Below are positions 543-35,251 of a stretch of DNA of 35,288 nucleotides, in pieces. How positions within the stretch are numbered: position 1 is the first letter of the stretch; each line of letters starts with the position of its first letter. Source of the stretch: Burkholderiaceae bacterium (lineage in GTDB: Bacteria; Pseudomonadota; Gammaproteobacteria; Burkholderiales; Burkholderiaceae_C); NCBI GenBank assembly GCA_019746735.1, contig JAIERT010000144.1, positions 1 to 35,288 of the forward strand. The letters are read 5' to 3'. A program made the translations under genes and the position numbers. A model generated the notes under the pieces. That model did no database searches, had not been told where the DNA came from, and saw nothing but the letters and a program-made list of their open reading frames with translations.

Positions 543-883
543 ATGCGCGTCTTCCTCAACCCGTCATCGACGCATTGACGGTGACCGCCCGTCGCCAGAA
601 ACCCTTGATCGGTGCATCCCTGCTGGAGCGTCTGCTACTTCGCCATGTCGCTGTCGTGTGTCCGGAGTCGCGACTGGTCGTGGCTGTCATCAAACAGGCG
701 TTCATTGACCTGTGCTCGCCCTCGAAACATCTGCGCTCTGAGGCCAGACGTTTCTTTCGAGACGGGCGCCTGGAGCTGTGGTGCGACCAGGTCGGTCTGT
801 CCCCCAACTTCATGCGAGAGATCGCGACCAAGGCTGGCTACTTGAATCCGGCAGACACCGATGAAGGAGGTGTCCATGCTTGA
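539..883 (+). CDS. Conserved hypothetical phage protein
   Basis: ATGA overlap with the upstream gene (539-542); MNARLPQPVIDALTVTARRQ... in the same operon. Confidence 0.6.
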   Translation: MNARLPQPVIDALTVTARRQKPLIGASLLERLLLRHVAVVCPESRLVVAVIKQAFIDLCSPSKHLRSEARRFFRDGRLELWCDQVGLSPNFMREIATKAGYLNPADTDEGGVHA

Positions 884-3188
884 TTTCAACGACCAAGAAC
901 CCGCAGCTCCATCACCCAGCGGAAATTCCGAGCGGGATGAACTGCGATCGGCCTTGATGGCACGGCTCGAGGGCGTGCTGTTTGCTTTATTTCCGGCGGG
1001 CAAGGTGACACACGGCAAATTCGTCGTTGGCGATGTGCTGGGCAGTCCAGGTCGCAGTCTGGAGATCGAGCTGGATGGTGAACGGGCGGGCCTGTGGATC
1101 GACCGCGCCACGGGTAATGGTGGCGATGTCTTTGCGCTCATCGCTGCGCACCGCCATTGGGACACGCATCGTGATTTCGCGGCCGTCCTCAGCTTCGCCC
1201 GGGAACTGCTCGGCCGAGCGCCCGCCGTGTCACCCGCCAGACGCAAGGCAAGCGCGCCGGTAGATGAATTGGGTCCAGCCACCGCCAAGTGGGACTACCT
1301 GGCCGCTGACGGCAGTCTGATTGCCTGCGTGTATCGCTATGAGCCCAGTCCTGGACGTAAGGAATTCCGCCCTTGGGATGCCAAGCGTCGCAAAATGGCG
1401 CCGCCCGATCCGAGGCCGTTGTTCAACCAACCTGACATTGCTCATGCCGACCGGGTGATTCTGGTCGAGGGCGAAAAATGCGCCCAGGCCTTGATCGACG
1501 CGGGCCACTGCGCGACCACCGCGATGCATGGTGCCAACGCACCGATCGACAAGACCGACTGGTCACCCCTTCAGGGCAAGCATGTCCTGATTTGGCCCGA
1601 CCGCGACAAACCCGGCTGGGAGTACGCCATGAATGCCGCCGAGGCGGTCATGGCAGCGGGTGCCCAGCAATGCGCGGTGTTGATGCCGCCGTCCAATCCC
1701 ACGGCGCAAGACCCCCAAGGGAGTGCGGATGGCTGGGACGCAGCCGACGCCATTGCTGAGGGCTTTGATGTGGAGGCTTTCCTTGCCCACGGTGAGCGCA
1801 TCCAATTCCAGCCTTCAACGCCAGACATCACGCAGGCAGCAGATCCGACCGAGCAATCGGTGTGGGCCACCGAAGACGCACTGGCGCTGACTTTCTCGGG
1901 TCGGTACGCCCAGGACTGGCGCTATGTCGCGTTGTGGGGAAAGTGGGTGTTCTGGACTGGCAAGCGCTGGCAAACCGAGGAGACTCTGGCGGCGCACCAC
2001 CTGATGCGCCAGATCTGTCGGGAGGCCGCACTCAAGGCTGATTCTCACCGGGTGGCCGCCAAACTCGCCAGCAGTGGCACGGTGGCTGGCTTGGAGCGGC
2101 TCGCACGCTCCGATCGGCGTCATGCCGCCACCGCCGACGAGTGGGATGCCGACCCCTGGCTGCTCAACACGCCAGGCGGCGTGGTGAATCTCAAGAATGG
2201 CGTGCTGCGCTCCCACGACCGTCTGGACCGACTGACCAAGATCACGACGGCCACCCCCGCGGGTGATTGCCCCACCTGGCGGCAGTTCATCCATGAGGTC
2301 ACGGGCGGTGATCAGCCTCTGCAGGCCTATCTTGCCCGGATGGCAGGGTATGCCCTGACCGGATCGACACGCGAGCATGCGCTGTTCTTCCTGTACGGCA
2401 CAGGTGCCAACGGCAAATCGGTGTTCGTGAACACCCTGGCCACCATCCTAGGCGACTACGCCACCAACGCGCCCATGGACACGTTCATGGAAACCCGCAC
2501 GGACAGGCACCCGACCGATATGGCTAGCCTGCGTGGGGCCCGGTTTGTCGCCGCCATCGAAACCGAGCAAGGGCGACGCTGGGCCGAGTCCAAGGTCAAG
2601 AGCTTGACCGGTGGCGACAAGATCTCTGCGCGCTTCATGCGACAGGATTTTTTCGAGTTCATGCCGCAGTTCAAGCTGATCGTGGCCGGCAATCACAAAC
2701 CGGCTATCCGCAACATCGACGAAGCGATGAAGCGGCGCCTCCACCTGATCCCGTTCACGATCACCGTCCCACCGGAAAGGCGCGACAAGCACCTACAGCA
2801 AAAACTGCTGGCCGAACGGGATGGGATCCTGGCTTGGGCGGTTCAAGGCTGTCTGGAGTGGCAGCGTCAGGGCCGGCTCGACCCGCCCCAGCAGGTGCTC
2901 GATGCCACCGATGAGTACTTCGAAGAAGAGGACGCAATTGGTGAGTTCCTGGACGAGGACTGCCAGCAATCGCCCGTGGCGCGGGAAGCGATTTCCGCGA
3001 TCTACCAGCGCTGGCGTGAGCGCGCTGAGCGGCGTGGCGAGTACGTGGGCACCAGCCGCTGGCTCACCCAGCAACTCATCAACCGTGGGTTTGCGCGCAC
3101 ACGCCTGCATGGCGGGGCAAAAGCCTTGTTAGGCCTGTCGCTCAAACCCCGCGAGCCGGGCGGCTACATGCCCTATCGGGACGACTGA
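876..3188 (+). CDS. Phage/plasmid primase-helicase (TOPRIM + D5_N + SF3 helicase, P4 alpha-like)
   Basis: ATG 876 preceded by AAGGAGGTG; TOPRIM-like RVILVEGEKCAQALIDAG...VLIWPDRDKPG; Walker A FFLYGTGANGKSVF; FKLIVAGNHKPAIRNIDEAMKRRLHLIPF typical of D5-family helicases. Confidence 0.9.
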   Translation: MLDFNDQEPAAPSPSGNSERDELRSALMARLEGVLFALFPAGKVTHGKFVVGDVLGSPGRSLEIELDGERAGLWIDRATGNGGDVFALIAAHRHWDTHRDFAAVLSFARELLGRAPAVSPARRKASAPVDELGPATAKWDYLAADGSLIACVYRYEPSPGRKEFRPWDAKRRKMAPPDPRPLFNQPDIAHADRVILVEGEKCAQALIDAGHCATTAMHGANAPIDKTDWSPLQGKHVLIWPDRDKPGWEYAMNAAEAVMAAGAQQCAVLMPPSNPTAQDPQGSADGWDAADAIAEGFDVEAFLAHGERIQFQPSTPDITQAADPTEQSVWATEDALALTFSGRYAQDWRYVALWGKWVFWTGKRWQTEETLAAHHLMRQICREAALKADSHRVAAKLASSGTVAGLERLARSDRRHAATADEWDADPWLLNTPGGVVNLKNGVLRSHDRLDRLTKITTATPAGDCPTWRQFIHEVTGGDQPLQAYLARMAGYALTGSTREHALFFLYGTGANGKSVFVNTLATILGDYATNAPMDTFMETRTDRHPTDMASLRGARFVAAIETEQGRRWAESKVKSLTGGDKISARFMRQDFFEFMPQFKLIVAGNHKPAIRNIDEAMKRRLHLIPFTITVPPERRDKHLQQKLLAERDGILAWAVQGCLEWQRQGRLDPPQQVLDATDEYFEEEDAIGEFLDEDCQQSPVAREAISAIYQRWRERAERRGEYVGTSRWLTQQLINRGFARTRLHGGAKALLGLSLKPREPGGYMPYRDD

Positions 3189-3209: not shown

Positions 3210-3303
3210 GGTGACCGAAAGTGACCGGCATATCGTTATCTCTCTACACGTGTACGCGCGCAGGCGCGAGCGGATAACGAGAAACGGGTCACCTTCGGTC
3301 ACC
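3210..3303. repeat. Nested inverted-repeat/iteron region (candidate replication origin)
   Basis: 17-nt arms GGTGACCGAAAGTGACC (3210-3226) and GGTCACCTTCGGTCACC (3287-3303) are reverse complements at 16/17 positions; inner arms TCGTTATC (3233-3240)/GATAACGA (3273-3280); central palindrome TACACGTGTA (3245-3254). Confidence 0.75.
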
Positions 3304-3330
3304 AGATGCCAAAAACGCATGGAGTGACCA

Positions 3331-3804
3331 ATGAACACAATGACCATCCTCGCCCTTGATCTGGGCACACAAACCGGCTGGGCACTGACCAGCCGTGACG
3401 GCAGCATCACCAGTGGCAGCCAATCCTTCAAACCCCAACGCTTCGAAGGCGGCGGCATGCGCTTTCTGAGGTTCAAGCGCTGGCTCACCGACATCAAGCA
3501 GTGCAATGACGGCATCGACCAAGTCGTGTTCGAAGAAGTCCGCCGCCACGTTGGTGTCGACGCGGCCCATGCCTATGGCGGATTCATGGGACAGCTCACC
3601 GCCTGGTGCGAGCACCACCAGATCCCGTACCAGGGCATTCCGGTCGGCACGATCAAGAAGAACGCCACGGGTAAAGGTAACGCGAGCAAGGATGAGATGG
3701 TGGCATCCGTCCGTGCGCGTGGCCACGCCCCAGCCGACGACAACGAGGCTGACGCCATCGCCTTGCTGTACTTGGCCCGTGAAATGGCCACGGAGGGGGT
3801 GTGA
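3331..3804 (+). CDS. RuvC-like Holliday junction endonuclease (phage type)
   Basis: ILALDLGTQTGWAL ... VVFEEVRRHVG ... DDNEADAIALL: RNase H/RuvC-fold acidic motifs. Confidence 0.8.
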   Translation: MNTMTILALDLGTQTGWALTSRDGSITSGSQSFKPQRFEGGGMRFLRFKRWLTDIKQCNDGIDQVVFEEVRRHVGVDAAHAYGGFMGQLTAWCEHHQIPYQGIPVGTIKKNATGKGNASKDEMVASVRARGHAPADDNEADAIALLYLAREMATEGV

Positions 3805-4830: not shown

Positions 4831-6255
4831 ATGACGCCAAACCTGCAGATCGAATACCGCCCGATCGATGCGCTGCTGCCTTACGCGCGCAATCCGCGCA
4901 CGCATTCGCCAGTCCAGATCGCCAAGATCGCGGCCAGCATCGTGGAGTTTGGCTGGACGCAACCCATCCTGGTCGATGGCGACAACGGCATCATCGCCGG
5001 CCACGGACGCCTCGCGGCCGCGCGCAAGCTGGAGTTGCCCGAGGTCCCGGTCATTGAACTGGGCCACCTCACCCCGGCGCAAAAACGCGCCTACGTGATC
5101 GCCGACAACCGCCTGGCGCTGGACGCCGGGTGGGACGACGAGTTGCTGGCGCTTGAACTGGCCGAGTTATCCGAGGCCGGATACGACCTGCTGCTCACCG
5201 GATTCGACGATAACGAGCTCGCCAAGATGCTGGCCGACTTGGGTGATGCTGAAGGCAGCGAGTCTGGAGATGAGTCGGATACCGATGAGGAAAACGACGT
5301 TCCCGAACCACCCAAGCTGCCGATCTCCCGACCAGGGGATGTCTGGCAACTGGGCCCGCACCGCCTGATCTGCGGTGATGCCAGCGATCCGTTGGTGGTC
5401 GCCGCCCTGATGCAGGGCGAGCAGGCCAGTTTGTGTTTCACCTCGCCGCCCTACGGCAACCAGCGCGATTACACCTCTGGCGGTATCGCTGACTGGGATG
5501 GCCTGATGCGCGGCGTGTTTGCGCAAGTACCCATGGCCGCCGATGGCCAGGTGCTGGTCAACCTCGGGCTGATCCACCGCGACAACGAGTTCATCACCTA
5601 CTGGGACCAGTGGCTCGATTGGATGCGGACACAAGGCTGGCGGCGCTTTGCCTGGTACGTCTGGGACCAGGGGCCAGGGATGCCCGGCGATTGGCAGGGG
5701 CGTCTGGCGCCGAGCTTTGAATTCATCTTCCACTTCAACCGGCACACGCGCAAACCCAACAAGACCGTGCCCTGCAAGTTTGCCGGCCAGGAGACCCACC
5801 TGCGCGCCGACGGATCCTCGACCGCGATGCGCGGCAAGGATGGACAGGTCAACGGCTGGACCGCTGCCGGCCAGCCGACGCAGGACTACCGAATTCCCGA
5901 CTCGGTCATCCGGGTCATGCGCCACAAGGGAAAGATCGGCAAGGACATCGATCACCCGGCCGTCTTTCCGGTGACGCTGCCGGTGGAGGTCATTGAGGCG
6001 TACACCAATGAAGGCGAGATCGTGTTTGAGCCCTCTGGCGGCAGCGGCACCACGCTGATGGCCGCCCAGCGGACAGGGCGTATTGGCCGCGCGGTGGAGA
6101 TCGCACCCGAGTACGTCGACGTGGCGCTGCTCCGTTTCCAACAGAACTTCCCTGGCGTGCCGGTCACCCTGACCGCCACCGGAGAACCCTTTGAGGTTGT
6201 TGCTCAACAACGCAAAGCCGAGCATCGACAAGAGAGCGAACATGCAACTGTCTGA
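4831..6255 (+). CDS. ParB-like nuclease domain / DNA methyltransferase fusion (TSPPY type)
   Basis: ParB/Srx N-domain LLPYARNPRTHSPVQIAKIAASIVEFGWTQPILVDGDNGIIAGHGRLAAA; motif IV FTSPPYGNQRDY; motif I FEPSGGSGTTLMAAQ. Confidence 0.9.
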   Translation: MTPNLQIEYRPIDALLPYARNPRTHSPVQIAKIAASIVEFGWTQPILVDGDNGIIAGHGRLAAARKLELPEVPVIELGHLTPAQKRAYVIADNRLALDAGWDDELLALELAELSEAGYDLLLTGFDDNELAKMLADLGDAEGSESGDESDTDEENDVPEPPKLPISRPGDVWQLGPHRLICGDASDPLVVAALMQGEQASLCFTSPPYGNQRDYTSGGIADWDGLMRGVFAQVPMAADGQVLVNLGLIHRDNEFITYWDQWLDWMRTQGWRRFAWYVWDQGPGMPGDWQGRLAPSFEFIFHFNRHTRKPNKTVPCKFAGQETHLRADGSSTAMRGKDGQVNGWTAAGQPTQDYRIPDSVIRVMRHKGKIGKDIDHPAVFPVTLPVEVIEAYTNEGEIVFEPSGGSGTTLMAAQRTGRIGRAVEIAPEYVDVALLRFQQNFPGVPVTLTATGEPFEVVAQQRKAEHRQESEHATV

Positions 6256-6691
6256 ACATTTCGAACTGGCCGAGTTTCTGGTCTCAGAAACGGCGGCTCG
6301 CCGTGGCATTGCCAACGAGCCCACACCCGAGGTCATCGAGAACTTGCGTCGGCTGTGTCAGTCGGTGCTGCAGCCGCTGCGCGTGCACCTCAAACGGCCG
6401 GTGGTGATCATCTCCGGCTACCGCTCGCCAGCGCTGAACCGCGCGATCGGCGGCAGCCCGACCAGCCACCACATGCAAGGGCGTGCGGCTGACCTCATCG
6501 TGCCAGGTATGACGCCGTTGCTCGTGTGCCAAGCCGCCCACCAGTTGAAGCTGCCCTGCGTGCAGATCATTCACGAGTTCGGACGGTGGACCCATCTGGC
6601 AGTGGCGATCTCGAATGAGCGCACCCAGTTGCTCACGGCCAAGCTGAACCAGGGCAAGACCGTCTATGAAACGGGGTTGGTCCATGTCTGA
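6242..6691 (+). CDS. Peptidase M15 family D-Ala-D-Ala carboxypeptidase/endolysin-like protein
   Basis: IISGYRSPALNRAIGGSPTSHHMQGRAADLIV ... GRWTHLAV: SxHxxGxAxD and terminal WxH zinc motifs. Confidence 0.85.
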   Translation: MQLSEHFELAEFLVSETAARRGIANEPTPEVIENLRRLCQSVLQPLRVHLKRPVVIISGYRSPALNRAIGGSPTSHHMQGRAADLIVPGMTPLLVCQAAHQLKLPCVQIIHEFGRWTHLAVAISNERTQLLTAKLNQGKTVYETGLVHV

Positions 6692-7946
6692 ACCCTGGCT
6701 CTCTACCCATATTGAGCGCTGGCCCACCGAGAAACTCGTGCCCTACGCCCGCAATGCCCGTACCCACTCCGAAGAGCAGGTGGCGCAGATCGCGGCCTCC
6801 ATCGTCGAGTTCGGGTTCACCAATCCGATCCTGGCGGGGTCTGATGGCGTGATCGTCGCCGGTCATGGACGGCTGGCCGCTGCGCAAAAGCTCGGTCTGG
6901 ATACCGTGCCGGTGGTCGTCCTCGATCATCTGACACCCACCCAGCGCCGCGCGCTGATCATTGCGGACAACCGCATTGCAGAAAACGCCGGCTGGGACGA
7001 CGCCATGCTGCGCATCGAGTTGCAGTCGCTGCAGGAAGATGGATTCAATCTCGACATCACCGGCTTCGATGCCGACGCGCTGGCCGAGATCATGGCGGGC
7101 GAAGAGACCACGGTCGATGGCAATACAGATGAGGATGCCATTCCAGAACTGAGCGAAACAGCCATCAGCCGACCCGGTGACGTGTGGATTCTTGGCAATC
7201 ACCGGCTGGTTTGCGGTGATGCTACGCAGCCATTCAGCTACGAGCAGTTGCTCGCCGGGCAACGCGTTCAGATGATCTGGAGCGACTTGCCCTACAACGT
7301 CAACTATGCCAATAGCGCGAAAGACAAATTGCGTGGTAAGCACCGACCTATCCTGAATGACAACTTGGGCGAGGGTTTTTATGACTTCGTCTTCGATGCG
7401 CTCTCGCTGATGTTGCCCCACTGCGATGGCGCGGTCTACATTGCGATGTCCTCCAGCGAACTTGACACGCTACAAGCCGCGTTTCGCGCGGCCGGTGGAA
7501 AGTGGTCTACGTTCATCATTTGGGCCAAGCACACCTTCACCCTGGGCAGAGCGGATTACCAGCGTCAATACGAACCGATCCTGTATGGCTGGCCGGAAGG
7601 CAGCAGTCGGCATTGGTGTGGCGATCGCGATCAAGGTGACGTCTGGAATATCAAGAAACCTGCCCGCAACGATCTTCATCCCACGATGAAACCTGTCGAG
7701 TTGATGGAACGTTCAATCCGCAATTCGAGCCGACCAGGCGATGTGGTCCTCGATTGCTTTGGCGGATCCGGCAGCACGCTGATCGCCGCTGAGAAATCGG
7801 GGCGCCGCTGCTTCATGATGGAGTTGGAGCCGAAGTACTGCGATGTCATTGTTCGCCGTTGGCAGGAATTCAGTGGTGGCAAGGCTATCTCTGAATACAG
7901 CCAACGCGTCTTCGACGAGGTCACAATCCAGGAGGCTCCGGCGTGA
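6666..7946 (+). CDS. ParB-like domain / N4/N6 DNA methyltransferase fusion (DLPY variant)
   Basis: N-domain LVPYARNARTHSEEQVAQIAASIVEFGFTNPILAGSDGVIVAGHGRLAAAQ paralogous to the 4831 gene; motif IV-like SDLPYNVNY; motif I VLDCFGGSGSTLIAAEKSGRRCFMMELEPKYCD. Confidence 0.9.
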   Translation: MKRGWSMSEPWLSTHIERWPTEKLVPYARNARTHSEEQVAQIAASIVEFGFTNPILAGSDGVIVAGHGRLAAAQKLGLDTVPVVVLDHLTPTQRRALIIADNRIAENAGWDDAMLRIELQSLQEDGFNLDITGFDADALAEIMAGEETTVDGNTDEDAIPELSETAISRPGDVWILGNHRLVCGDATQPFSYEQLLAGQRVQMIWSDLPYNVNYANSAKDKLRGKHRPILNDNLGEGFYDFVFDALSLMLPHCDGAVYIAMSSSELDTLQAAFRAAGGKWSTFIIWAKHTFTLGRADYQRQYEPILYGWPEGSSRHWCGDRDQGDVWNIKKPARNDLHPTMKPVELMERSIRNSSRPGDVVLDCFGGSGSTLIAAEKSGRRCFMMELEPKYCDVIVRRWQEFSGGKAISEYSQRVFDEVTIQEAPA

Positions 7947-24260: not shown

Positions 24261-24899
24261 ATGAGTCTGCAAACCGATCTGCATCAAGCGGTCGCGCAGG
24301 TCACGGCCGACAGTGCCTTGTTGCACACCATCGTGCACGGCACCGCCGCGCAGACCGTGACCACCGAGGGTGGTGCGGTCGCCACCGTGGCCAAGCTGCT
24401 GGCGGACGCCGATGCCCGCATCAACCTGGCCGCTGACGGCCTGCTGGCCCAGAGCCAGGCCGCCGCGCAAGACGCGCTCACCTCGGCCGAACTCGCCGCC
24501 ACCGAAGCCGACCGCGCCCAAGCCTCGGCCGACCAGGGCGTGGCGGACACCACTGCCGTGCTCAACCAGGTGCAGTCCAGCGGCAACCAGATCCTGGTGG
24601 ACGCTGAAGCCGTGCTGCAGCAGGTCATCGCCCGGCTGCTCGCAGTGGGACTGCCGGACTCCTTGATCGGCGCACGCGGGATGCTGCTGAAGGTCAAGGT
24701 CGATGAATCCGGCTACGAGCTGGTCCACACCGCGGCTTTACCTCGCTTCTATGGTTTCGCGCTTTCCAGCGACGGATCTGAACTGCTGGTGACGGAGGGA
24801 CGAGATGCCAACTTCAATGCGCAAGACTTCCTGGCTTGGACTCTGGCCGAAGGGGTGACCTTTGCCCTCCATCAAAACGCCCTGGAGGTGCAACTGTGA
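24261..24899 (+). CDS. Tail fibre-like protein (Ala-rich coiled coil stalk)
   Basis: AQSQAAAQDALTSAELAATEADRAQASADQGVADTTAVLNQVQSSGNQILVDAEAVLQ. Confidence 0.6.
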   Translation: MSLQTDLHQAVAQVTADSALLHTIVHGTAAQTVTTEGGAVATVAKLLADADARINLAADGLLAQSQAAAQDALTSAELAATEADRAQASADQGVADTTAVLNQVQSSGNQILVDAEAVLQQVIARLLAVGLPDSLIGARGMLLKVKVDESGYELVHTAALPRFYGFALSSDGSELLVTEGRDANFNAQDFLAWTLAEGVTFALHQNALEVQL

Positions 24900-26572
24900 A
24901 CCTGGATATATCGGTGCTGGGCTACCGCTGGTGCGGCCTCTACTCGCCCTACCTGAGCTATCGAGATGGAGATGTGGTCTTCAAGGAAGGCGGCGCCTGG
25001 GTGATGCGCCACGGCCAGCCGCAGCCCTTTGCGCTGGGCCAGCAGGACGCAACCCTCAAAGGCCACTTGCTCACCGGCGGGGTGTCGGTGGGTGGCATCG
25101 GCAGCATGGTGCTCCACGCGAATGGCGCCAATGGGGTGGATGGTGTGGAATTCCGCTTCATGGCCGATCGCAACGGCACGGTGGCCACGGCGCTGATGAA
25201 CACCGACCGTGCGGCGGCCGACTACCACAGCGCCAACTTCTTCATGGCTGCGCTCATGAACGACGGCTCGGTGCGTGCCTGGGGCCGGGCGCTCACCGGC
25301 CAGCAGGGCACCGGCAACACCGGTGACATCAGCCGTACCTTCCCGGCGCGGGTGGCATTTCCACCGGGTACGCCTCGCATCATGTCCATCATCTGCATGT
25401 GGGACGAGACCTTCTTCATCGATGCCAGTGGCGGCTTGTGGCACGCCGGGGCCAACAGCGACGGGGGTTCGCCCACGGCCACCGCCAATCCGGTGCCTCG
25501 ACGCGTCAATGGGGTGGGCCAGTTGCCGGCCGATGCCGTGGTCAAGCGGGTCTTCACTGGGCACGACTGGTACGGCTATCGCATGTTCGCTTGCCTGGAT
25601 GACGCCGGCCGCGTCTATGTCTGGGGCAACAACCGCTATGGCAGCCTCGGGCTGGGGCACAGCACCACCGTCTCCACGCCCACGCTCGTGCCGTTCACGC
25701 TCGACACCCCGATCCGCGAGGTCTTTCTGTCGGGCGGCTTTCATGCCGCGAGCTACCTGGTGGACACCCTGGGCCGATTGTGGGTGGCCGGAGAAGCCAA
25801 CGCCTGTGGCTTTGGCAGCGACCAATCTGTCCACCGCCTGCTCATGCCATGGGGCAGCGACAAGCGCGTCAAAAAAGTCTTCTGCTCCGAGTCCGACGGG
25901 CATTGGGTGGCGGGCGCCCAGTACTACCGCGCCTACGGCGTGGTGCTCGAAGACGGATCGCTCTACCGCTGGGGGCATGACAGCGGTCAGGTCGGCGGCA
26001 GCTGGGGCACGGGTTTCACCGGCGATATCTGGACCGGTCACGCGCTGTTTCCATACAAGGTGCTCGACGGCGTGACCGACGCCTACGCCATCTCCGGCGG
26101 TTATGGCAGGACGCTGGCGCTCATGCAAGACGGCACGGTGCGCCACACCGGGTACAACGGCTACAGCATCGGCGGCGGCAGTGACCGCACCACCTGGGCC
26201 ACCATCGGCGGCGACGTCCTGACCCAAGTCACCAAGCTGCGCCTGTACGGCAGCAGCTATGGGTCGTCTGCCATGGCACTCCGATCTGACGGCAAGGCGG
26301 TGGGCTGGGGCATGGGGGCAACGGGGCAGTGCGGCCACGGGTATGCCGACACGTCCAACGCCCCCTCTCGCTTCGTGCTCATCGACCGACCCATCGTCGA
26401 CTTCTCCCGCTCCGGGTCTATGGGCTGCAGCGAGGGTGGCGAGTACCACAACGGCGCCTACCACTTCCTCACCGTCGATGGTCAGGTGATGAGCACTGGC
26501 AACGGCAGCTATGCACAAACGGGCGATGACGACCAAGACCACCGCTACGCGCCATCGCCCATCCTGTTCTGA
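24896..26572 (+). CDS. RCC1-repeat beta-propeller tail protein 1
   Basis: GTG start overlaps upstream stop; repeats GSVRAWGRALTGQQGTGNT, GRVYVWGNNRYGSLGLGHSTTVSTPTLV, GSLYRWGHDSG, GKAVGWGMGATGQCGHGYADTSNAPSRFV. Confidence 0.8.
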   Translation: MNLDISVLGYRWCGLYSPYLSYRDGDVVFKEGGAWVMRHGQPQPFALGQQDATLKGHLLTGGVSVGGIGSMVLHANGANGVDGVEFRFMADRNGTVATALMNTDRAAADYHSANFFMAALMNDGSVRAWGRALTGQQGTGNTGDISRTFPARVAFPPGTPRIMSIICMWDETFFIDASGGLWHAGANSDGGSPTATANPVPRRVNGVGQLPADAVVKRVFTGHDWYGYRMFACLDDAGRVYVWGNNRYGSLGLGHSTTVSTPTLVPFTLDTPIREVFLSGGFHAASYLVDTLGRLWVAGEANACGFGSDQSVHRLLMPWGSDKRVKKVFCSESDGHWVAGAQYYRAYGVVLEDGSLYRWGHDSGQVGGSWGTGFTGDIWTGHALFPYKVLDGVTDAYAISGGYGRTLALMQDGTVRHTGYNGYSIGGGSDRTTWATIGGDVLTQVTKLRLYGSSYGSSAMALRSDGKAVGWGMGATGQCGHGYADTSNAPSRFVLIDRPIVDFSRSGSMGCSEGGEYHNGAYHFLTVDGQVMSTGNGSYAQTGDDDQDHRYAPSPILF

Positions 26573-26611
26573 ATCCCACCGATTTCAATCTCCACTCTTC
26601 AAGGACTGTTC

Positions 26612-28258
26612 ATGGGAACTGTTTCTCTGGGCAAGATTGCCTTTACCTGGCGCGGCGCATACGACGCCAGCGCCACCTACGCCCGCCAGGACGTGGTCGG
26701 CCACCACGGCGACAGCTTTGTGTGTCTCGCGGACGCCACCACAGGCGTGGCGCCGCACGCCAATTCCCCAGCTTGGGATCTGTTTGCCCAGGGCACGCAA
26801 GGGGTCTCGAACCTGCCGGGCGAGGTCATCTACTTCGATGGCAACCAGCTGGTCGCCTTGCCCGCAGGTCAATCCGGGCAGGTGCTCACCATCGGCGCGC
26901 AGGGTGTGCCGGTCTGGGCAACGCCTGATGTGCGTTCGGGCACCAAGGCACTCAAATTGCCAGAGAACGCCAGCAACACGCAACCGAACAGCTACCGCCA
27001 GTTCGGTCTCGTCATGACCGACGGCAGCATCCGTGCCTGGGGGCGCAACGCCAACTTCAAGCTGGGGGACGGCACCACCTTCGCGCGTTCCTACCCGGCA
27101 CGCACAGCGTTTCCGCCGGGGTTTCCGGGGGCGGACAAGCTTTATTACAGCCACGATACCAACGGCTACTGCATCGACAAGAACGGCCAGCTCTGGGGTT
27201 GGGGGTTCAATGGCTATGGTCAGCTCGGTACCGGCAACACGGCCAATCAGCCGGTGCCGTACAACATGAGCGCCAATGCCAGCAACTCGATCGCCGGCAA
27301 AACCGTGGTGCAGCTGGCACAAAACTGTGGCGTCGAGGGGTTCAACAGCACCCTGGTGCTGTGCAGCGATGGCACGGTCCACGCCTGCGGCTATAACGCC
27401 CATGGCCAGCTGGGCTTGGGTGATGTGACCCAGCGCAACAACTTCGTGCAGTTGCCGGTGCTCTCAGGCATCACCCAGATCGCTGCCGGGCGTGAGCGCT
27501 ATACGGCTTACTACGCCGTCAAGAACGACGGCACCCTGTATTCTTGGGGTTACAACGCCAACGGCCAGCTGGGCGACGGCACCACCAATCAGGCCAACGT
27601 CGCCATGCCGCGTGCGGGCGGCAGCCTCGCCGGCAAAACCCTCGTCAAGGTCTTCGGCGGCTATGTCCATGCGTTTGCACTGGACAGCACCGGTGCCTTG
27701 CATGCCTGGGGCACCAACGACTACGGGCAACTGGGCAATGGGAATCTTGCCAACCAGTTCACCCCGGTGCAGGTAGCCACCAACGTGGCCGATGTTTACG
27801 CGGGTAGCTACGACTACCCGCTCACCTTTCTCAAAAAAACCGACAAGACCCTGTGGGCCTGCGGAGCCGGGGCCTATTGGGGCAACGCCAATGGCAGCAA
27901 CAGCGGCAACTTCGTGCAAGTGCCGGTAGGCAATACCGTGGTCAAAGCCGTACACGGCGGCACCGGTTCCTACAACTATGGCGCCGCCTTGCTGGAAAAC
28001 GGCACCGTTTACGCCTGGGGTTACAACGGCAACGGAGCACTCGGACTGGGCGACGCCACCAACCGCAGCAGTGTGGAACTGGTGCGCATTGCGCAGCGTC
28101 GTGTGGTGGACCTCTCGTCCTACGGGTCGAGCTCCGAGCAAGGCTTGGTGTTTCTGCTCGACGATGGTCAGGTGCTGGCCAGCGGCTATGCCGGAGAAGC
28201 GCAGTTACCCGAGGACGATAGCGAAACGAGCTACGTGCCTTACCCCGTCATCCTCTGA
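26612..28258 (+). CDS. RCC1-repeat beta-propeller tail protein 2 with carbohydrate-binding-like N-terminus
   Basis: N-term FTWRGAYDASATYARQDVVGHHGDSFVCLADATTGVAP...W (CBM5/12-like); GQLWGWGFNGYGQLGTGNTANQPVPYNM, GTLYSWGYNANGQLGDGTTNQANV, GALHAWGTNDYGQLGNGNLANQFTPVQV, GTVYAWGYNGNGALGLGDATNRSSVELV. Confidence 0.9.
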   Translation: MGTVSLGKIAFTWRGAYDASATYARQDVVGHHGDSFVCLADATTGVAPHANSPAWDLFAQGTQGVSNLPGEVIYFDGNQLVALPAGQSGQVLTIGAQGVPVWATPDVRSGTKALKLPENASNTQPNSYRQFGLVMTDGSIRAWGRNANFKLGDGTTFARSYPARTAFPPGFPGADKLYYSHDTNGYCIDKNGQLWGWGFNGYGQLGTGNTANQPVPYNMSANASNSIAGKTVVQLAQNCGVEGFNSTLVLCSDGTVHACGYNAHGQLGLGDVTQRNNFVQLPVLSGITQIAAGRERYTAYYAVKNDGTLYSWGYNANGQLGDGTTNQANVAMPRAGGSLAGKTLVKVFGGYVHAFALDSTGALHAWGTNDYGQLGNGNLANQFTPVQVATNVADVYAGSYDYPLTFLKKTDKTLWACGAGAYWGNANGSNSGNFVQVPVGNTVVKAVHGGTGSYNYGAALLENGTVYAWGYNGNGALGLGDATNRSSVELVRIAQRRVVDLSSYGSSSEQGLVFLLDDGQVLASGYAGEAQLPEDDSETSYVPYPVIL

Positions 28259-32571: not shown

Positions 32572-32703
32572 ATGAATCAACTCAAAAAGGTAGCAACTGG
32601 CAAAGATTTAGCGTGCTTGGCAGGTAAATACTCTGGTTCCGATGCGAACACACGGAGTGCGGTAGCCATGCTATTGGATGCCCAGGTCGGAGGGCACGCA
32701 TGA
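32572..32703 (+). CDS. Candidate 43-aa ORF translationally coupled to galE
   Basis: ATG with upstream [59 protein letters not shown] overlap with galE start. Confidence 0.4.
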
Positions 32704-33707
32704 GTATTCTGGTTACCGGCGGTGCCGGTTACATCGGATCCCACACCTGCGTCCAACTGCTTCAGGCCGGCCACGAAGTTGTTGTTTTCGACAACTTCAG
32801 CAACAGCCACCCCGAAGTGCTCAATCGGGTCGAACAGATCACTGGGCGCAAGCCCATGCTGGTGCAGGGCGATATTCGCGACCAGGCGGCCATCGAGTCG
32901 GCCTTGCGGCAACACCAGTGTCAGGCCGTCATTCATTTCGCCGGGTTGAAGGCGGTTGGCGAGTCTGTTGAAAAACCGCTTCTCTACTACGACAACAATG
33001 TCGTCGGCACCCACCGCCTTCTTGCAGCCATGCAGAACTGCGGTGTCACTACACTGGTCTTCAGTTCTTCTGCCACCGTCTATGGCGAGCCTCAAAGCCT
33101 GCCACTCACGGAAGACCACCCGCTATCGGCCACCAACCCCTACGGGCGCAGCAAGCTGGTCATCGAAGACATGCTGCGGGATGTGTATCGCGCCCATCCC
33201 GATTGGCGCATTGCCATCCTGCGCTACTTCAACCCGGTGGGCGCGCACGAGAGCGGGCTGATCGGCGAAGACCCACAAGGCACGCCCAACAACCTCATGC
33301 CCTATGTGGCCCAAGTGGCCGTGGGTCGGCGGGAATTTCTCAACGTCTGGGGCAACGACTACCCCACGCCGGACGGCACTGGCGTGCGCGACTACATCCA
33401 TGTGGTCGATTTAGCGCTGGGCCACCTCAAGGCGCTTGAAGCGCTTGATCGACCACAGTGCATGGCCGTGAACCTGGGCACTGGCGTGGGCTACAGCGTG
33501 CTCGATGTCGTCAAAGCGTTCGAAGCCGCCAGCGGCCAGCCTGTCCCTTATCGCATCGGCCCGCGCAGACCGGGCGATGTGGCGGCTTGCTATGCCGACC
33601 CGCGCCTGGCGATTCAGCTATTGGGCTGGAAAGCCGAGCGTGACTTGGCCGCCATGTGTCAAGACCACTGGCGCTGGCAGAAACACAATCAACAGGGATA
33701 CGTATGA
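32700..33707 (+). CDS. galE: UDP-glucose 4-epimerase
   Basis: [51 protein letters not shown]; full-length 335 aa. Confidence 0.95.
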
Positions 33708-33744
33708 ACTTGAAAGCTTTTTGCAGCGCGGAGGGCGCAAGCTA

Positions 33745-34563
33745 ATGCGGAGCTTCTCAGTCTCACCCATCGAAATGTTTGCCAGCCTCTGGCGCAACCG
33801 CGAACTTATCAAGGCCTCGGCCAAGCGCGAAGTACTGGGGCGCTATCGCGGTTCGTTCCTCGGCCTGCTCTGGACATTCTTCAATCCGCTCTTCATGCTT
33901 GCGGTGTACACCTTCGTCTTCAGCGTTGTCTTCAAGGCGCGCTGGAACGTTGAGAGCGACTCGAAAACCGAATTCGCCTTGGTGCTCTTTGCTGGCCTGA
34001 TTGTTTTTAACCTGTTTGGCGAAACTATTAACCGGGCAGCGTCTTTGGTAATCAACAACCCCAACTACGTCAAGAAGGTGGTCTTCCCGCTGGAAATTCT
34101 GCCTGTCGTTACTCTGCTGTCTGCACTATTCCACGGGATGATCAGCCTTGGTGTCTGGTTCCTGGCGCATCTGATCTTTTTTGGCTTGCCCCACGCCACT
34201 GTGCTTTATCTGCCCTTGATCATCTTGCCGTTCCTGCTGTTCGTTCTCGGCCTGAGCTGGGGGCTGGCATCGCTTGGAGTTTTCCTGCGAGATGTCTCTC
34301 AATTCATCGGCACGCTCATTACTGTGTTGATGTTCATGACCCCGATTTTCTACCCCATCACCGCTTTGCCAGAGGAATTTAGGCAATGGCTCTATTACAA
34401 CCCTCTCACACCCGTTGTTGAGCAAGCGCGAGATGTGCTGTATTGGGGTAAACCACCGAACTTTTTCATGTTGGGTGTTTACACGCTGGTTTCGGCAGTC
34501 GTTGCGTGGCTGGGCTTCGCGTGGTTCCAGAAGACGCGGAAAGGGTTTGCCGATGTCCTCTGA
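33745..34563 (+). CDS. wzm: O-antigen/polysaccharide ABC transporter permease (ABC-2, Wzm-type)
   Basis: LIKASAKREVLGRYRGSFLGLLWTFFNPLFMLAVYTFVFSVVF...VFLRDVSQFIGTLITVLMFMTPIFYPI. Confidence 0.85.
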   Translation: MRSFSVSPIEMFASLWRNRELIKASAKREVLGRYRGSFLGLLWTFFNPLFMLAVYTFVFSVVFKARWNVESDSKTEFALVLFAGLIVFNLFGETINRAASLVINNPNYVKKVVFPLEILPVVTLLSALFHGMISLGVWFLAHLIFFGLPHATVLYLPLIILPFLLFVLGLSWGLASLGVFLRDVSQFIGTLITVLMFMTPIFYPITALPEEFRQWLYYNPLTPVVEQARDVLYWGKPPNFFMLGVYTLVSAVVAWLGFAWFQKTRKGFADVL

Positions 34564-35251
34564 AATCGCCATCAAGGTCGAGAACCTAAGCAAGTGTTAT
34601 CAGATCTACGACCAACCGCGTGACAGGCTTAAGCAGTTCGTGCTTCCGCGAATGCAAAGCCTTGTCGGCTTGCAGCCCAAGCAGTACTACCGCGAATTCT
34701 GGGCGCTGAAAGACGTCTCGTTCGAGGTCAAGAAAGGCGCTGCTGTAGGCATTGTCGGTCGAAACGGTAGCGGCAAGTCCACCTTGCTGCAGCTGATCTG
34801 TGGAACACTATCGCCGACACGCGGGCTAGTTGAAGCCAACGGCCGCATCGCTGCATTATTGGAGCTTGGATCGGGGTTTAATCCAGAGTTTACAGGCCGT
34901 GAAAATGTTTATTTAAACGGTTCGATTCTTGGCATAGAAAAAGAGCGGCTCGACGAAAGGTTCGCCGATATCGAGAAGTTTGCAGATATAGGGAATCATA
35001 TTGATCAGCCGGTGAAAGCATACTCCAGTGGAATGTTTGTGCGACTTGCTTTTGCCGTGCAAATGCATCTTGAGCCGGAGATACTGATCATCGATGAGGC
35101 ACTTTCTGTTGGGGATCAGTTCTTTCAGGCAAAGTGCTATGCGGCAATCCGTTCAATGATGGATCGCGGCACAACTGTACTATTTGTTTCCCACTCCGCA
35201 GCTACTGTCAAGGTGACCTGCCCGGTTTTTCCGAGCCATTCATTCCTGTAA
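34553..35251 (+). pseudogene. wzt: Polysaccharide ABC transporter ATP-binding protein (Wzt-type), apparently truncated at 3' end
   Basis: Walker A GIVGRNGSGKSTLLQ, signature YSSGMFVRLAFAVQ, Walker B EILIIDEALSVGD; homologous-looking sequence ends at VLFVSHSAATVK then reads VTCPVFPSHSFL-stop. Confidence 0.75.

Follow-up and report, generated by a model that had tools for sequence, protein, structure and literature searches.

A candidate replication origin paired with the C-terminal domain of a P4-type phage primase

The primase locus and its inverted repeat

The window analysed here, a stretch of 35,288 nucleotides from a Burkholderiaceae assembly (contig JAIERT010000144.1), is a prophage or phage contig that codes for a primase, a RuvC-like resolvase, a DUF6362 protein and two DNA methylases, and further carries a GpA-type terminase, a lambda-type portal, and capsid and tail genes. 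The left end of the phage is absent from the window. At the opposite side, positions 32700-35251 contain host-like genes for a sugar-nucleotide epimerase/dehydratase and an ABC-2 polysaccharide-type transporter, so that the prophage probably ends at ~31.9-32.7 kb. Two adjacent proteins of the tail region, 578 and 548 residues long (24836-28258), are made up of RCC1-like repeats, which are unusual for phage tails. Two consecutive genes (4831-7946) encode fusions of ParB_N with an N6/N4 methylase; AcaML1, the Acidithiobacillus phage that is the nearest named phage by its primase (65% protein identity), likewise has two consecutive DNA modification methylases.

The primase-helicase gene (861..3188, plus strand) encodes a protein of 775 residues, the proposed initiator, which combines a D5_N domain (Pfam, E=6.9e-39) and a DUF5906 match with a P4-family primase C-terminal region. 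It scores 365 bits with the NCBIfam model TIGR01613, against a cut-off of 108.7, which places it in the P4 family, and it further matches PHROG 6088 (DNA primase). A second primase-like gene in the assembly (L012; G000:C406:15350-16234) is ~50% identical to it over the N-terminal 300 residues only, and possibly belongs to another prophage, one whose primase half is the same but whose helicase half is not. Downstream lies the gene for the RuvC-like Holliday junction resolvase (3331..3804, plus strand; PHROG 159, E=9.8e-34), a neighbour with a putative role in the element described below.

Directly 3' of the primase gene we found an inverted-repeat element of ~95 nt (3210-3303; 94 bp). Its outer arms, GGTGACCGAAAGTGACC on the left (3210-3226, plus strand) and GGTCACCTTCGGTCACC on the right (3287-3303, minus strand), are 17 bp in length and complementary at 16 of 17 positions. 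The left arm holds two direct GTGACC units (3211-3216 and 3221-3226) and the right arm two such units on the minus strand (3287-3292 and 3297-3302), in each case 10 bp apart. Inside these lie the inner arms TCGTTATC (3233-3240, plus strand) and GATAACGA (3273-3280, minus strand), which match at 8 of 8 positions. Our re-reading of the window sequence thereby bore out both levels of arms, and the paired units, that had been described in the initial annotation. The 10-bp palindrome TACACGTGTA (3245-3254), which had been taken for a central third level, is not truly nested, since its centre lies ~7 bp to the left of that of the arms; it is part of an 18-nt tract of alternating pyrimidines and purines, TACACGTGTACGCGCGCA (3245-3262), the longest of its sort in the window. 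A fifth GTGACC (3324-3329), also previously counted as an iteron, was rejected because it coincides in part with GGAG, the ribosome-binding site of the RuvC-like gene (which starts at 3331), and shows no conservation among the elements of relatives.

The GTGACC hexamer by itself is not rare, the window having 35 copies where 22 would be expected; the paired pattern GGTGACC-GAAR-GTGACC, when searched in the whole 2.77-Mb assembly, occurs only at the two arms of the element. Read as a single ungapped repeat, the element has 31 nt per arm with 84% complementarity. No other inverted repeat of this span in the window scores as high (18.5, the runner-up reaching 13.0), and the RNA fold computed for the element is 6.8 sd better than those of dinucleotide-shuffled sequences. 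A DNA-level search with the element against known phages recovered chance-level matches only.

Conservation of the element and co-variation with the primase C-terminal domain

We compared homologous primase loci from viral contigs and bacterial genomes (primases 65-99% identical), inspecting the gap between primase and RuvC. This revealed an inverted repeat of similar size (~91-107 bp) directly after the primase in ~220 loci, with 157 distinct elements; in AcaML1, where the local gene order is similar, an equivalent element occupies a 140-bp gap. The initial annotation had named a lack of conservation beside related primases as evidence against an origin, and in the loci examined the element is present in essentially all relatives. 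Its arm sequence varies by group (GGTGACCGAARGTGACC, CTGACGGATCGGACGG, CTGACGCAGCTGACGCAG, GTGACGGATTTGACGGG and others), and whenever it differs the opposite arm remains complementary, with occasional mismatches, such that both arms change together.

The last ~75 residues of the primase, hereafter the C-terminal domain (CTD), fall into three classes, A, B and C. The arms co-vary with this domain across the homologous loci: class A is found with GTGACC arms in 44 of 45 cases, class B with CTGAC[GA] arms in 120 of 122 and class C with GTGACG arms in all five, the arm motif fitting the CTD class in 169/172 distinct elements. These counts include as B-type seven class-B rows that have a GTGACC outside the arm, their arms reading CTGAC. 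The three misfits are L167, which has other units, L173, which is diverged, and L144, in which the CTD is truncated and the element missing.

In the window the CTD, which is of class A, is encoded by 2958..3185 (plus strand; ~residues 700-775) and is predicted to be a winged helix that reads the arms. An AlphaFold2 model of residues 640-775 shows the order beta-H-H-beta-beta (pLDDT 73), and CTD models of both classes tried have the winged-helix order at moderate confidence (pLDDT 73 and 70, pTM 0.5). Foldseek searches with these models gave best matches that are mostly winged-helix DNA-binding domains (RFX, forkhead, RTP, Orc1/Cdc6); these matches are weak, none of them reaching E<0.001. The predicted recognition helix corresponds to residues 731-741 (3051..3083, plus strand), the helix of the model spanning fragment positions 93-102.

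The primase bodies of L046 and L095 are 96% identical at the protein level and their CTDs 32%. At the DNA level the two show 72-100% identity until ~240 bp before the primase stop; between there and ~118 bp past the stop the identity drops to 38-52%, and it has recovered to ~95% by +178, in RuvC. The CTD and the element have thus been swapped together, otherwise similar phages trading the two as one ~360-bp block. Quick FastTree phylogenies call for 9 changes of CTD class when built from the remainder of the primase, for 20 when built from RuvC and for 2 when built from the CTD itself. Because neighbours that move as one block are inherited together, part of the co-inheritance of CTD and element is linkage.

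Within class B a finer association could be discerned. The base following CTGACG is either C or G, and among all columns of the primase alignment residue 733 is its best predictor: Lys733 occurs with G in 28 cases and with C in 5, and Arg733 with C in 59 and with G in none, so that 87 of 92 fit. In the phylogeny of the remainder of the primase the unit base changes 16 times, and 8.2 of 9 independent pairs point in the same direction and none in the opposite one (p 0.004-0.016, ~0.008); on the CTD tree the supported independent pairs are too few for this comparison. Residues 736 and 740 are also among the top five predictors of the unit sequence in class B, and in the models 733, 736 and 740 all fall within one predicted helix, where they show its strongest associations with the unit in this class. 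Drawn as it is from alignments, the association of residue 733 with the base is the evidence least open to the objection of linkage, and Lys/Arg against G/C at these positions is a candidate for a one-residue, one-base code.

Distant relatives and known replicons

Among more distant relatives of the primase, cluster K mycobacteriophages included, inverted arms of tandem units that score at least 14 follow right after the gene in 41 of 57; for control stretches taken from these contigs the figure is 1 of 109. As a rule the units repeat every 9 bp; the span is ~98-147 bp, and the units differ by lineage (GGCACAGAT, AGAACAGAT, TGGGACACC, TGCGACATG, TACACGTTT and further ones). The 16 loci below the score cut comprise some with weak unit pairs (e.g. 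L301, L292, L313) and others with nothing. The layout is present in the plasmid relatives pMNOD03 and pCB376_1; no such repeat lies directly after the primase in the Thermaerobacter and Parageobacillus plasmid relatives, and after the primase of Bordetella BPP-1 only a short inverted repeat with 9-nt arms was found. In the cluster K phages (L256-L289), opposed tandem 9-bp units (GGCACAGAT, AGAACAGAT, CTACAGAT and others) are situated between the primase and RusA, ~120-360 bp after the primase stop, and the unit differs between close relatives. The paper on this cluster reports other repeats, SAS/ESAS (PMC3203893). The cluster K units would be testable in well-studied phages.

The genes downstream vary. 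A RusA-type resolvase follows the element in mycobacteriophage Adephagia, and no resolvase is annotated directly downstream of it in the plasmid relatives; therefore the element belongs with the primase and not with RuvC. In six phage records of 30-48 kb and in the complete AcaML1 there is one element per phage.

Several known replicons offer partial parallels. In phage P4, type I iterons of crr and ori are bound by the alpha primase-helicase, and in origins of this sort the initiator makes the contact through its C-terminal domain; for the primase described here such binding is predicted indirectly, from the co-variation, the residue-base association and the winged-helix models. The crr of P4 begins 45 bp after the alpha stop codon and comprises two 120-bp repeats, each with two type-1 units 9 bp apart and then two opposed units ~45 bp on. 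Shared with the locus described here are the opposed arrays of direct units beside the primase gene and an initiator of the same TIGR01613 family. P4, however, has two crr repeats and a separate ori in place of a single element, a different unit (TGTTCACC/GGTGAACA), extra units and AT-rich surroundings, whereas the element here has extended complementary arms and an alternating pyrimidine-purine core. A second cluster in the manner of P4 was sought, and as only one was found in the six phage records and AcaML1 (the window itself being incomplete on the left), we do not class the element as a full P4 replicon.

PICI (SaPI-type) origins are located immediately 3' of rep (pri-rep) and have two iteron sets that flank an AT-rich region, an organization said to be unique to them among known replicons (PMC6092414). 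A pair of iteron sets directly 3' of the initiator gene is also seen here, in tailed phages and prophages, but the centre has a GC content of 0.57 and alternates between pyrimidines and purines; since an AT-rich centre was looked for and is absent, we do not class the element as a PICI origin. Replication of pRN1 requires a 100-nt stem-loop located downstream of orf904, and Bordetella phage BIP-1 has been predicted to contain a similar one (PMC4234260). Our ~100-nt inverted repeat just downstream of a primase/SF3 helicase/winged-helix initiator is comparable, although the pRN1 stem-loop is described without iterons and with a primase of another type (PMC4234260). Geminivirus Rep and its iterons (PMC12548392) likewise represent iteron origins with coupled initiator specificity; their initiator is unrelated, the mode is rolling-circle and the layout differs. 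The element would work in the manner of these systems and is best read as a replication origin of P4/PICI-like type to which the CTD of the primase gives the address.

Function of the element

We consider it very probable that the 94-bp element is the replication origin, or an essential cis replication site, of a temperate tailed phage, and that it is addressed by the CTD of the primase. The computations directly establish its anatomy, its conservation after the primase, the joint change of its arms, their change together with the CTD, the exchange of the two as a cassette and the single copy per phage in the records searched; the suggestion of the initial annotation, that an origin beside the D5/P4-type primase would have its repeats read by the CTD, is strongly supported by the comparison of loci. 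Counting against this reading, the core is not AT-rich as typical melting sites are (GC 0.57 against 0.63 for the window, with class medians of 0.56-0.58), the GC skew has no extremum at the element, which makes it uninformative as an origin signal, and the winged-helix models are of moderate confidence.

Under the proposed mechanism, the primase-helicase gene would encode the initiator of an origin placed just after itself. The winged-helix CTD would bind the two iteron units in each arm, and the facing arrangement of the arms would allow a pair of SF3-type helicase rings to load in opposite orientation, flanking the ~60-bp core. These rings would then melt the core, the primase domain would prime both forks, and replication would start bidirectionally. 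The T antigen of SV40, which likewise belongs to the SF3 helicases, forms a double hexamer on GAGGC pairs in inverted orientation.

Initiation might instead depend on structure, with a strand folding into an extended hairpin or a cruciform whose centre is Z-prone, the initiator recognizing this structure as has been proposed for pRN1, and the next-door resolvase resolving it. We regard this as doubtful, though it retains some plausibility. The hairpin z-scores of the elements range from -5.3 to -9.0, the alternating pyrimidine-purine run of the cores has a median length of 21 nt (148 distinct elements) against 6 in shuffled cores, a resolvase gene often lies downstream, and the integrity of the pRN1 stem-loop is required (PMC4234260). 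Moreover, the spacer bases that separate the units of class B arms, and lie outside the conserved unit core, co-vary near-perfectly with the other arm (columns 13-15, 100% Watson-Crick, with CG/GC, AT/TA and TA/GC exchanges), and this pattern in the alignment speaks for a hairpin or for palindrome-keeping mutation. However, template-switch correction can also keep palindromes perfect, and the wobble-type mismatches (52 plus-type and 33 minus-type, beside 46 transversions, in 1670 pairs) show no clear strand preference. A T-T mismatch in the inner stem is kept in 22/32 distinct class B elements (columns 32/79 of alignment A4), and the arm sequence follows the CTD class, which points to a reading of bases.

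Alternatively, replication could start at another place, and the element, bound by the primase, could serve as a control or auxiliary site resembling P4 crr, as an autoregulatory operator or as an incompatibility site. Replication of P4 depends on ori as well as on crr, the latter adjoining alpha, so that the element might be one of two cis sites, and upstream phage sequence is missing from the window, which begins 860 bp before the primase. Yet no second copy or iteron cluster is seen in the longer phage records or AcaML1, a location downstream of the gene is poor for an operator, and PICIs have their origin in the stretch 3' of rep (PMC6092414), all of which makes this alternative improbable. 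That chance or a mutational correction of palindromes preserved the repeat, which simply travelled along with the CTD, would agree with their lying within 400 bp of each other and moving as a block; we find this very improbable given the recurrence of the layout, with different units, in distant lineages of the primase, its near-absence from the control stretches, the residue-base association and the direct unit repeats kept inside each arm. Finally, the intergenic position and the strong RNA fold could indicate a terminator or attenuator of transcription, or an RNA regulator, in the primase-RuvC gap. This is hardly credible and was dropped: no T-run follows the stem, no terminator-like site, an alternative raised in the initial annotation, was called on the element, and no Rfam match reached the gathering score. 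In addition, the layout recurs after primases with other downstream genes or in plasmids, and the sequence of the element tracks the CTD class.

Returning to the origin addressed by the primase CTD, a more far-reaching form of it would regard CTD and origin as an exchangeable addressing cassette with a residue-to-base code, widespread in tailed phages, in which a Z-prone pyrimidine-purine core or an extruded cruciform, and not an AT-rich tract, provides the melting step and the adjacent resolvase acts on it; taken as a whole, we hold this to be unlikely. What is new here is the CTD-plus-origin cassette, the residue-base association, the alternating core and the breadth in tailed phages. In a search of literature that included only a minority of subscription papers, no earlier description of the element next to the primases of these phages came up.

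To our knowledge, the origins of most temperate phages are unmapped. If our reading is right, those of many phages with P4-type primases could be read from the sequence just 3' of that gene, and the layout described for PICIs alone (PMC6092414) would extend to tailed phages. Origin specificity would then reside in an exchangeable block of ~360 bp, CTD and origin together, which offers a natural experiment on the recognition of origins by initiators and would predict which of the phages, satellites and plasmids sharing a host could cross-replicate or interfere with one another.
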